Shown here: positions 18,908 through 34,508 of the stretch, piece by piece
How the letters are laid out: each line of letters starts with the position of its first letter
Position numbering within the stretch: position 1 is the stretch's first letter
From: Pseudomonadota bacterium
GTDB lineage: Bacteria; Desulfobacterota; Desulfobacteria; Desulfobacterales; Desulfolunaceae
Reading direction: 5' to 3'
Assembly: GCA_018818835.1 (NCBI GenBank)
Contig: JAHIRD010000139.1
Location: 1-34,508 of the forward strand
DNA length: 34,508 bases
Notes under the pieces: generated by a model
The model's input: the letters and a program-made list of their open reading frames with translations, nothing else
Told to the model about the DNA's origin: nothing
Database searches by the model: none
Program-made: the position numbers and the translations under genes

Positions 18908-21160
18908 ATGACACAAGGCCAAGATCCCAAAACCGGCGAACACATCGCCTATCATACCTGCCCCCTTTGTGAAGCAACCTGTGGGCTTGAATTCACCCTG
19001 AAAGACAATCGGGTTATCCGCATAAGAGGCGATAAAGAGGATGTGTTCAGCACGGGTTATCTCTGCCCCAAAGGCGCGTCTATTGTGGATCTGCACAATG
19101 ATCCTGACCGGCTTCGCACCCCCATGGTCCGCACCGGTGACACATGGAAAAAGGTATCCTGGGACGAGGCGTTTGCTGCGGTTGAAAAAGGTCTTCTTCC
19201 CCTGATTAAAAAAGACGGCAACGATGCGGTGGCCTTGTATCTTGGGAACCCCAATGCCCATACCATGGCTGCCTCATGTTTTTTGAAGGTGCTTATCAAA
19301 TCCCTTAAATCAAAAAATATATACTCGTCCAGTTCTGTTGACCAGATCCCCAAACATGTTTCCTGCGGATTCATGTTCGGCAGCCCCCTGACCATACCCA
19401 TTCCGGATATTGACCGGACAAACTATTTCTTGATATTGGGTGCCAATCCCTTGGCCTCAAACGGCAGTCTCTGCACAGCGCCGGACTTTCCAGGCCGTCT
19501 CCGCAGCTTGAAAAAGCGGGGCGGCAAGCTGGTTGTGATTGATCCCTGCCGAACCAAAACAGCCCAGATGGCGAATGAACATCATTTTATCCGACCAGGC
19601 ACGGATGCATTGTTTTTGTTATCGCTGGTTCATGTGCTTTTTAAGGAAAATCTCGTGTCCCTGGGAAAACTGGATGGGCATGTCACAGGAATCGAGGTGG
19701 TCAAAAAGGCATCGGAACTGTTTTCCCCGGAATCGGTGGAAGGCCATTGCGGTATAAACAAAACGACGATTTTCAAAATTGCCCGGGAACTTGCGGCCGC
19801 GGACAAGGCCGTGGTTTATGCCCGAATGGGCACCAGCGTGGTGGAATTTGGCACCCTATCAAACTGGCTGGTGGATGTCTTGAATGTCTTGACCGGGAAT
19901 CTGGATAAAGAGGGGGGCGCCATGTTCCCCATGGCTGCCCATGTGCCTGTCATCCCTGCGGTAAAGGGCAAAGGGTTCAAAATCGGCCGCTGGAAAAGCA
20001 GGGTAAAGGGTTTGCCAGAGGTTATGGGGGAATTTCCTGCAGCAACACTGGCCGATGAAATTGTAACACCCGGATCCGGTCAGATCAAGGCGCTGCTGAC
20101 GGTTGCGGCAAACCCGGTGATTTCAAACCCGAACAGCACGCGGCTTGACAAGGCCTTGTCCACACTCGATTTCATGGTTGCCGTTGATTTCTATCTCAAT
20201 GAAACCAACCGGCATGCACATGTCATTTTACCTCCGGCCTCTCCCTTGTCTCACAGCCAGTATGATTTCTTTTTTTACGGATTGTCCGTTCGAAATATCG
20301 CTAATTTTTCACCACCCGTCATCCCTTGCCATGAACAGGAAATGGATAAGTGGATGATTTTAATCAGGCTTGCATCCATTTTCAGCGGCATGGGGGCCAC
20401 GGCAGATCCCAAAGCCATGGACGATATGGTTATTCAATTTATGATCAATCAGGCCCTGGCATCAAGCAAAACCCAACTGGCAGACAGGTCCCTTGATGAC
20501 ATACTGGCCATGCTGGATAAAAACGACGGCCCCGTGCGAATCCTTGATTTTCTCCTGCGAACAGGACCGTATGGCGATGGTTTTGGCCTTAACTCGAAGG
20601 GTTTATCCCTTGACACGCTATTGGCACATCCCCATGGGATTGACCTTGGTCCTTTAAAACCCAGGATCCCGGAAATTTTATTAACCCCTTCGGGTAAAAT
20701 TGAACTGGCCCCGGACCTGATTGTTTCGGATATTAAACGGCTTCATACCTTTATTCAAAAACCACCTGAACGTCAGCTGGTACTCATCAGCAGAAGGCAT
20801 CTCCGGTCCAACAATTCCTGGTTTCACAATCTGCCCAAACTGGTAAAAGGGAAAAACAGGTGTACCCTTCAGATCAACCCGGAAGATGCATCATTACTGG
20901 GCCTTGAAGAGGGCTGTCCGGCGTGTGTTTCCTCCGCGGTGGGGGCGCTCACGATTCCCATAGAGATTTCCGGGGATATGATGAAAGGCGTTGTCAGCAT
21001 CCCCCATGGATGGGGCCATGACTTTCCGGGCATGTCCCTTTCCGTTGCCGCCTCGGTTCCGGGTGTGAACAGCAACATCCTGGCGGACGAAAAGCTTATG
21101 GATACATTGTCGGGGAATGCCGTACTCAATGGCATTCCTGTATCAATCAGCGTACCATAA
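18908..21160 (+). CDS. Molybdopterin-dependent oxidoreductase, catalytic subunit
   Basis: This is a 750-residue member of the formate dehydrogenase/DMSO reductase superfamily. An N-terminal [4Fe-4S] site is visible at C18-x2-C21-x3-C25-x27-C53. The Mo-bis-MGD core follows (GANPLAS near 178-184, VVIDPCRTKTA near 207-217), and a C-terminal molybdopterin dinucleotide-binding domain runs from about 635. There is no twin-arginine signal, so it is predicted cytoplasmic. The segment where a Mo-ligating Cys or Sec is expected reads SVDQIPKHVSC (143-153). The canonical position has no obvious Cys or Sec, although C153 is close. Substrate is therefore unknown. AAGGAT precedes the ATG. The next gene starts 86 bp downstream. 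No electron-transfer subunit is adjacent. Confidence 0.88.
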   Translation: MTQGQDPKTGEHIAYHTCPLCEATCGLEFTLKDNRVIRIRGDKEDVFSTGYLCPKGASIVDLHNDPDRLRTPMVRTGDTWKKVSWDEAFAAVEKGLLPLIKKDGNDAVALYLGNPNAHTMAASCFLKVLIKSLKSKNIYSSSSVDQIPKHVSCGFMFGSPLTIPIPDIDRTNYFLILGANPLASNGSLCTAPDFPGRLRSLKKRGGKLVVIDPCRTKTAQMANEHHFIRPGTDALFLLSLVHVLFKENLVSLGKLDGHVTGIEVVKKASELFSPESVEGHCGINKTTIFKIARELAAADKAVVYARMGTSVVEFGTLSNWLVDVLNVLTGNLDKEGGAMFPMAAHVPVIPAVKGKGFKIGRWKSRVKGLPEVMGEFPAATLADEIVTPGSGQIKALLTVAANPVISNPNSTRLDKALSTLDFMVAVDFYLNETNRHAHVILPPASPLSHSQYDFFFYGLSVRNIANFSPPVIPCHEQEMDKWMILIRLASIFSGMGATADPKAMDDMVIQFMINQALASSKTQLADRSLDDILAMLDKNDGPVRILDFLLRTGPYGDGFGLNSKGLSLDTLLAHPHGIDLGPLKPRIPEILLTPSGKIELAPDLIVSDIKRLHTFIQKPPERQLVLISRRHLRSNNSWFHNLPKLVKGKNRCTLQINPEDASLLGLEEGCPACVSSAVGALTIPIEISGDMMKGVVSIPHGWGHDFPGMSLSVAASVPGVNSNILADEKLMDTLSGNAVLNGIPVSISVP

Positions 21161-21161
21161 A

Positions 21162-21189
21162 TTGACATATGGGAAAAAACCCCCATATT
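21162..21189 (+). promoter_or_regulatory. Possible promoter or small hairpin before the selenoprotein gene
   Basis: TTGACA (21,162-21,167) is followed after 16 bases by CATATT (21,184-21,189), a plausible sigma-70 pair for the next gene. The same bases hold a 7-bp inverted repeat, ATATGGG (21,167-21,173) and CCCATAT (21,182-21,188), which could instead be a weak terminator for the preceding gene or an operator over the promoter. The reading is ambiguous. Confidence 0.3.
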
Positions 21190-21246
21190 AAAGAAAGGTA
21201 TAAACCAAAAGACCTTTCATTTATTTTACGACACATTGAGGTAACC

Positions 21247-21867
21247 ATGACACATAAAATAAGCATATTCTCAGACTATATCTGACCGTTCTGTTTCATC
21301 GGCAAAGGTATTGTCGATCAACTGAAAAAAGAGTTTGAGCTGGATGTCACCTGGGTTCCCTATGAAATACACCCGGAGACGCCTTCCATGGGGGTACTCA
21401 TTTCGGACATGTTTAAACATCTAGATCGTGACGCCATGTTTAACCAGTTTAACCGGAGCGGCAAACCCTATGACATTTACTTTAATAAACTTGAGTACAT
21501 CTATAATTCTCGGGCGGCTCTTGAAGTCTCTGAATTTGCACGGGACAAAGGTGTTTATGATCAGGTCCACAATCTAATCTTCTCTGCCTATTTCCATGAT
21601 GGAAAGAACATTGGTGACCCGGAAGTCCTCTATGATATCACTGATAAAGTCGGATTAAACAGGGAAGAGACCGCAGAAATTATTAAAAAGAAAACCTACG
21701 GCAATCGTCTGGTGGCTGCCATGGAAGAAGGCCGTGAACATGGGATTTCAGCTGTACCAACATTTATATTTTCCGATAATCAAACGCTCACTGGGGCCCA
21801 GCCCCTGGAAATGTTTAAACGTATACTTGCTGGGGGTACAAGCCAATCGCCGGGAAATATTCTTTAA
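21247..21867 (+). CDS. DsbA/FrnE-family thiol oxidoreductase, probable selenoprotein (UxxC)
   Basis: From ATG 21,247 (GAGG six bases upstream) the frame reads M-T-H-K-I-S-I-F-S-D-Y-I, then UGA at 21,283-21,285, then P-F-C-F-I-G-K, and stays open to 21,867. Family members have CPFC or CPWC at exactly this place (SDYxCPFCxxGK), so the UGA most likely encodes selenocysteine, giving U13-P-F-C16. The 206-residue length, the EIHPETP segment and the cis-proline P171 in AVPTF fit DsbA/FrnE thioredoxin-fold proteins of the cytoplasm. There is no signal peptide. A SECIS-like hairpin follows the UGA. Conventional gene calling would begin at ATG 21,388 and lose the active site. An alternative is a nonsense mutation, but the family match on both sides of the UGA and the hairpin argue against it. 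The substrate is unknown. Confidence 0.85.
21298..21318 (+). promoter_or_regulatory. SECIS-like hairpin for selenocysteine insertion
   Basis: ATCGGCAA (21,298-21,305) pairs with TTGTCGAT (21,311-21,318), eight base pairs including one G-U, around the five-base loop AGGTA. Bacterial SECIS elements lie just after the UGA and have a short stem with a GGU-type apical loop. Here the loop GG is about 21 bases after the UGA, within the usual range. It would recruit SelB with selenocysteyl-tRNA. Confidence 0.82.
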
Positions 21868-33999: not shown

Positions 34000-34508
34000 T
34001 TATTGACATTCAGCACATATTGCATACACCGTCAATGTAATCATTTTAGTCTGAGACGATTGATTTGTATATTTAATTGTCCATCCGTCCCCTGTAGGGA
34101 TTGGATATGACTCTGACAAGAGGTTGCCGTTATAGTCCGATTTCCCTCCCCCGCCTAATACTTTTTTTCCCGATGGGCATGACACGGATATGACACCGGC
34201 ATTACCTCCAAAGGAAAGAAGTGTATAACTCGCACTATTCGAGACAATACCATAACCGGATATGCCCGGATCTCCTTGATCCCCTTTGTCGCCTTTTAAG
34301 CCTTCGGGGCCTTGAAGACCCGTATCACCTTTAGGACCCTGGGGGCCCATGGCTCCGGCTATTCCCTGGGATCCCGTATCCCCTTTGTCGCCTTTTAAGC
34401 CTTCGGGGCCTTGAAGACCCGTATCACCTTTGGGACCCTGGGGGCCCATGGCACCGGCGATTCCCTGGGCTCCGGTATCCCCTTTGTCGCCTTTTAAGCC
34501 TTCGGGGC
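34000..34508 (-). CDS. Collagen-like repeat protein, C-terminal part
   Basis: The leftward frame is open to the window end, so the N-terminus is missing. An in-frame ATG at 34,449 lies inside the repeats and is not the real start. Gly-X-Y triplets run from the edge to about 34,262 ([19 protein letters not shown] type, Lys/Asp-rich). A C-terminal domain of about 85 residues with a beta-rich look follows ([23 protein letters not shown], ending YAICAECQ), typical of the caps on bacterial collagen-like proteins. It is likely a trimeric surface or secreted fibre. The stop lies 69 bp upstream of the cyclase start on the same strand, so co-transcription is possible. Confidence 0.85.
34281..34508. 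repeat. 99-bp in-frame tandem repeat in the collagen-like gene
   Basis: CCCCTTTGTC recurs at 34,281, 34,380 and 34,479, and GGGGGCCCAT at 34,341 and 34,440, all with a 99-bp period. The copies are nearly identical at the DNA level. The unit encodes 33 residues, or 11 Gly-X-Y triplets, so copy number can change without a frameshift. The array continues past the window edge. Confidence 0.9.

Follow-up and report, generated by a model that had tools for sequence, protein, structure and literature searches.

The window, i.e. the whole stretch of 34,508 nucleotides analysed here, carries on its plus strand (21247..21867) a DsbA/FrnE-like gene of 206 aa whose in-frame UGA is very probably read as selenocysteine. 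According to this reading, which we hold with high confidence from sequence comparison, the product would be a cytoplasmic oxidoreductase of the DsbA/FrnE group with U13 as the attacking residue, the UGA being recoded by SelB and Sec-tRNA(Sec) via a hairpin at 21298-21318. What was computed are the open frame, the position of the UGA at the catalytic column, the conservation of both UGA and hairpin, the recoding genes and the predicted fold.

An in-frame UGA at the first active-site position of a DsbA-like protein

Translation of 21247-21867 with TGA taken as U yielded 206 residues with U13 as the single recoded codon, verifying the claim of an earlier note on this DNA that the frame is open except for the UGA of codon 13 (21283..21285, plus strand). 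The ribosome-binding site that had been proposed for the ATG at 21247 was read from the sequence as GAGG at 21238..21241 on the same strand, 5 nt 5′ of the start. The UGA encodes the predicted selenocysteine as the first residue of a U-P-F-C motif, and the second redox residue, Cys16 (21292..21294, plus strand), is the sole cysteine of the protein, so that positions 13 (U) and 16 (C) are its only Sec/Cys positions. Residues 5-194 are matched by the Pfam DSBA domain PF01323 (E 8.8e-30), and thus a U-x-x-C motif and this domain are both present, while the two NCBIfam models reported for the protein both scored below their own cut-offs. One of them, NF041057, the model of the thioredoxin-like (seleno)lipoprotein Rcas_1661, has weak similarity to residues 66-194 (E 7.1e-9), and membership was rejected at 35.6 bits versus a cut-off of 190. 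In FrnE structures C-P-W-C aligns at the UGA, i.e. the UGA stands for the first Cys of the DsbA CxxC, as had been noted from the sequence.

UGA is the usual state at the active-site column

Matches to the window protein were found in 68 genomes of a relatives sample of 146, in 78 match rows, of which 71 were examined, the other seven being weak, with E values of 3e-5 or worse. At the column of codon 13 these 71 same-order loci carried 62 TGA, 7 TGC, 1 TGT and 1 TAA, with two of the TGC rows (L133 and L134) representing distant DsbA-family proteins. Genome contigs were also scanned with an alignment of the sequence that follows the UGA, keeping the best 80 of 364 relatives, and a phylum search gave matches in 85 of 395 genomes at 1e-12, the best nine of which were read besides the window; 88 of those 89 further loci were readable at the column and had 71 TGA, 12 TGT and 5 TGC. 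Aligning homologues for a Cys at position 13, a check suggested by the earlier note, therefore found one in 8/71 and 17/88 loci. Since the two sets overlap, with some records identical under two names (six pairs), distinct stretches were counted, which gave 99 with TGA versus 23 with Cys in a sample whose members were picked because they resemble the window and its relatives. UGA is thus the usual state in the loci examined, and its frequency at this single column far exceeds what chance would give.

The record titles of the TGA carriers span Thermodesulfobacteriota/Deltaproteobacteria, Bacillota, Nitrospirota, Chloroflexi and Actinomycetota, and include Smithella, other Syntrophaceae, Desulfobacterales, Desulfocapsaceae, Sedimentibacter saalensis, Clostridium rhizosphaerae, Tumebacillus lacus, Salirhabdus euzebyi and Desulforamulus aeronauticus, whereas the Lokiarchaeota/Lokiarchaeia rows have Cys in 11/11. 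On a quick tree, which contains three identical pairs, the Sec label required at least 7 changes, and the window protein grouped with Bacillota rows, Peptococcaceae among them (SH-aLRT 84), support too low to argue for transfer.

A SECIS-like hairpin follows the UGA

Just downstream of the UGA, a SECIS-like hairpin is predicted at 21298..21318 on the plus strand, consisting of an 8-bp stem (AUCGGCAA/UUGUCGAU) and an apical loop AGGUA (21306-21310) that begins 20 nt after the UGA. The homologues were scored for it in one ungapped register, taken from the window's own fold, and against a synonymous null. The 99 distinct TGA sequences retain 6-8 of the 8 pairs (mean 7.13) and all have a G among the first two loop bases, compared with a mean of 3.70 pairs and a G in 12/23 for the distinct Cys sequences, two of which keep 6 and 7 pairs (the latter L191); the 11 Lokiarchaeota rows, a natural Cys control, form 2 to 4. 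For 49 distinct order sequences 88.5% of the positions were paired, versus a mean of 60.1% (sd 1.6, max 65.6%) in 2000 synonymous draws. Taken by itself, the window sequence is only moderately unusual: its whole-region fold energy was reached by 7.6% of synonymous variants, its eight pairs by 4.1% and its hairpin energy by 0.6%. Pair columns covary as well, offsets 18/32 being G-C in 60 and A-U in 37 of the 99 distinct TGA sequences, and offsets 20/30 C-G in 63 and U-A in 33, in rows that are related and so do not represent independent events. Such a hairpin just 3′ of the UGA, with a G in its small apical loop, supports reading this codon as Sec.

The single codon at the column that specifies neither Sec nor Cys is the TAA of homologue L052 (G088:C95, codon 2028-2030), where the frame is otherwise open and a strong hairpin with loop GGA follows, equalled by 4.4% of synonymous variants. 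A UAA-decoding tRNA-Sec was considered for it and rejected; because the single tRNA-Sec recognised among the matches of that genome has the anticodon UCA, a mutation or an error in the sequence is the likelier source of this TAA.

The genome encodes a complete selenocysteine machinery

The window genome (6.75 Mb in 334 contigs, 98% complete) contains SelA (607 bits), SelB (366 bits), SelD (363.5 bits) and tRNA-Sec (74.1 bits), all above the cut-offs, so the absence of selenocysteine machinery, named by the earlier note as grounds for refutation, does not apply. Its SelD contains a UGA of its own, within the motif RAAGUAAK, and a hairpin follows this codon. Across the relatives sample, RF01852 matches above the cut-off were found in 125/146 genomes. 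Of the genomes in the order, 57 carry the TGA gene; a canonical tRNA-Sec of at least 70 bits was present in 48 of them, and the search, run with stricter filters, did not find one in the other nine, which are drafts of ~120-740 contigs and 81-97% completeness.

A second UGA-reading system in the same genome

Besides the canonical Sec system, the window genome has a UCA tRNA of the selC* type (56.6 bits; L057, G000:C160:14000-24000). This tRNA has A1:U72 and U73, its acceptor stem is 8 bp long, and its T stem carries an unpaired A (GG-A-GG/CCCC); a SelB-like protein of 641 aa (SelB*) is encoded directly downstream. SelB* aligns with SelB along its full length at 32% identity and keeps the last winged helix, PF09107, above the cut-off. 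The tRNA features are those given for the selC* tRNA-Cys of Desulfobacterales in PMC7609411, and the system is described in PMC9437257 as putting Cys at selenocysteine codons, with a posited role under selenium scarcity.

These observations speak for a reading in which the UGA of our gene would always be decoded as Cys, by selC* tRNA-Cys(UCA) and SelB*, to give a classical CPFC enzyme. Against this stands the complete Sec set of the same genome. Of the published selC*/SelB*/CysRS* components, the tRNA and SelB* were found, but no cysS* adjoins selB* at this locus; the second CysRS of the genome (763 aa, L062:553-2844, G000:C100) is a PALP (cysteine-synthase-like) domain fused to a full cysteinyl-tRNA synthetase, with DALR and CysS_C domains. 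It retains the anticodon-binding domain that CysRS* is said to lack (PMC7609411), and was rejected as CysRS* because it does not match the published form. Furthermore, 53/57 genomes with the TGA gene have no selC* among the matches listed. We therefore regard an exclusively Cys reading as quite improbable.

The distribution of selC* rests on 28 other tRNA-Sec-model matches below 70 bits, among the matches listed, that were fetched and classed. U73 and a bulged T stem are common to thirteen, though not all have A1:U72, and 12 of the thirteen have a SelB* match downstream within the available stretch; of the other 15, L232, L233 and L257 resemble canonical tRNA-Sec cut by contig ends, L237 is odd and the rest are other tRNAs. 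L237 (G076:C1) is a second UCA tRNA, called tRNA-Sec by ARAGORN, which is unlike both the canonical and the selC* types and has no SelB match downstream. In L239 (G012:C128), a selC*-shaped tRNA has GCA, a cysteine anticodon, and a SelB*-like gene starts 1.5 kb downstream, at the contig end.

Because the TGA gene occurs in 4/14 selC* genomes versus 53/132 others of the order, as classed among the matches listed, with no enrichment in selC* genomes (Fisher p 0.57), Sec would be the general reading of this DsbA-like family, with Cys as a possible alternative in the window genome. It is conceivable, if rather unlikely, that both are used: with ample selenium SelB and tRNA-Sec might insert Sec at the UGA, whereas under scarcity SelB* and selC* tRNA-Cys might insert Cys, and one gene would then yield both UPFC and CPFC enzymes.

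Three genomes (G132, G102 and G054), in which the sole listed tRNA-Sec-like match is of the selC* type (50.7-51.9 bits), were considered as reading UGA solely as Cys, but this is not supported, SelA being present in all three. G132 (L246) is 99% complete, and at E 1e-6 the selC*-type tRNA is all that was matched there; the stricter filters may have hidden a canonical tRNA-Sec.

The conserved frame begins upstream of the annotated start

Under standard annotation (table 11) the mechanical ORF starts at 21388 and runs to 21867 on the plus strand, giving 159 aa without the first strand and the entire redox motif; the loss of the catalytic motif had been foreseen correctly. An ATG is present at 21388 with GGAG upstream, as would suit a true product beginning there behind an untranslated stretch. 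Such a product would be a thioredoxin fold minus strand 1 and minus every redox residue, and, as Cys16 is the only Cys, it would contain no Cys at all. Homology, moreover, continues upstream through strand 1 and the motif, in contrast to the homologues beginning at 21388 without Cys or Sec that would have told against the selenoprotein. In a 20-row alignment, in which all rows except the window protein were cut nine residues before the Sec/Cys column, S9, D10, Y11, the Sec/Cys column, P14 and C16 are invariant. A start at 21388 is accordingly very improbable. Pro171 (21757..21759, plus strand) is likewise invariant in these rows, and we take it to occupy the position of the cis-proline loop in thioredoxin folds, presumably in the cis state.

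That the UGA is a true stop or a wrong base, i.e. a pseudogene or a sequencing error, as the mechanical ORF finder's treatment of it as a stop would have it, is hardly credible and in our view already refuted by conservation, the same column carrying UGA in 133 rows, or 99 distinct stretches, which come from several phyla and have the frame open on both sides and the hairpin in common.

Predicted fold and a possible mechanism

The selenoprotein was modelled by AlphaFold2 with a mean pLDDT of 94.3, and a helix (14-26) begins right behind U13. The six best PDB matches by Foldseek are five FrnE entries of Deinococcus radiodurans and SCO1869 (TM normalised to query 0.78-0.87), and the lower matches include YjbH, kappa-class GST, HCCA isomerase and DsbM. 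Strand 1 starts at model residue 3, leaving no room for the N-terminal signal peptide of a periplasmic DsbA.

FrnE of D. radiodurans (5cnw, 5co3, 5cp1) provides the best matches in both sequence and fold, with Cys where the window protein has Sec. The protein shares the FrnE-like fold and, where the first helix begins, the CP(W/F)C-type motif, with U replacing the first C, but the C-terminal CXXXXC tail of many, not all, FrnE is absent, and it is therefore called FrnE-like and not FrnE proper. According to PMC8945050, FrnE has CP(W/F)C and is predicted to act as a thiol oxidoreductase in the cytoplasm. The D. radiodurans protein, drFrnE, is proposed to reduce disulfides in the cytoplasm; in vitro it showed isomerase activity and reduced insulin, and a mutant with the gene disrupted has raised sensitivity to cadmium and diamide.

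The analogy with drFrnE makes reduction or isomerisation of disulfides in the cytoplasm the most likely activity of the window protein, with U13 attacking and Cys16 resolving. The hairpin would direct SelB and Sec-tRNA(Sec) to recode the UGA; the U13 selenolate would then attack a disulfide (or an oxidised thiol) to form a Se-S bond with the substrate, Cys16 would resolve this bond, and the Se-S pair left over would be reduced by some partner. As the CXXXXC tail is absent, regeneration probably differs from that of drFrnE. Sec insertion, the cytoplasmic place, the direction of the reaction and the substrate are what we infer here.

The upstream neighbour is a molybdopterin oxidoreductase (18908..21160, plus strand, 750 aa) that ends 86 bases before the selenoprotein ATG. 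The adjacency pointed out by the earlier note is thus real, but because no match to the oxidoreductase was found in 94 other family loci (flanks of up to 1.5 kb in 89, more in four), it says little about function, and a conserved operon of the two was rejected (0/94). A promoter-like site at 21162-21189 was not above chance (1 found, 3.0 expected). Near the contig end, at 34000-34449 on the minus strand, the window contains an ORF with collagen-like G-x-x repeats.

A further member of the DsbA-like UxxC family

The DsbA-like UxxC family has been in print since 2005, and the window gene is a further member. The Sargasso Sea survey reports nine DsbA-like UxxC selenoproteins of COG2761 with SECIS (PMC1088965); DsbA-like selenoproteins are given for Anaeromyxobacter dehalogenans, Desulfovibrio desulfuricans and Desulfotomaculum reducens (PMC1794560), so that, as the earlier note had stated, Sec in DsbA-like proteins of deltaproteobacteria was already known, from two species; three DsbA groups are distinguished (PMC2398784), the DsbA-like family is listed (PMC9312934), and two DsbA-like selenoprotein sequences come from Lokiarchaeia/Helarchaeales (PMC11227280). 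A table of a 2026 review names a 'DsbA-like protein form 1', and the same review calls the functions of the prokaryotic selenoprotein group that includes the DsbA-like proteins largely uncharacterised (PMC13188914). PF01323, U-x-x-C and a SECIS after the UGA are common to these members and the window gene, and no qualitative difference was found in comparing the published members by their descriptions.

The gene is a clean example of how standard annotation destroys a catalytic domain, the mechanical ORF being without the active site. With two UGA-reading systems in one genome, dual decoding of UGA as Sec or Cys becomes directly testable with this gene.
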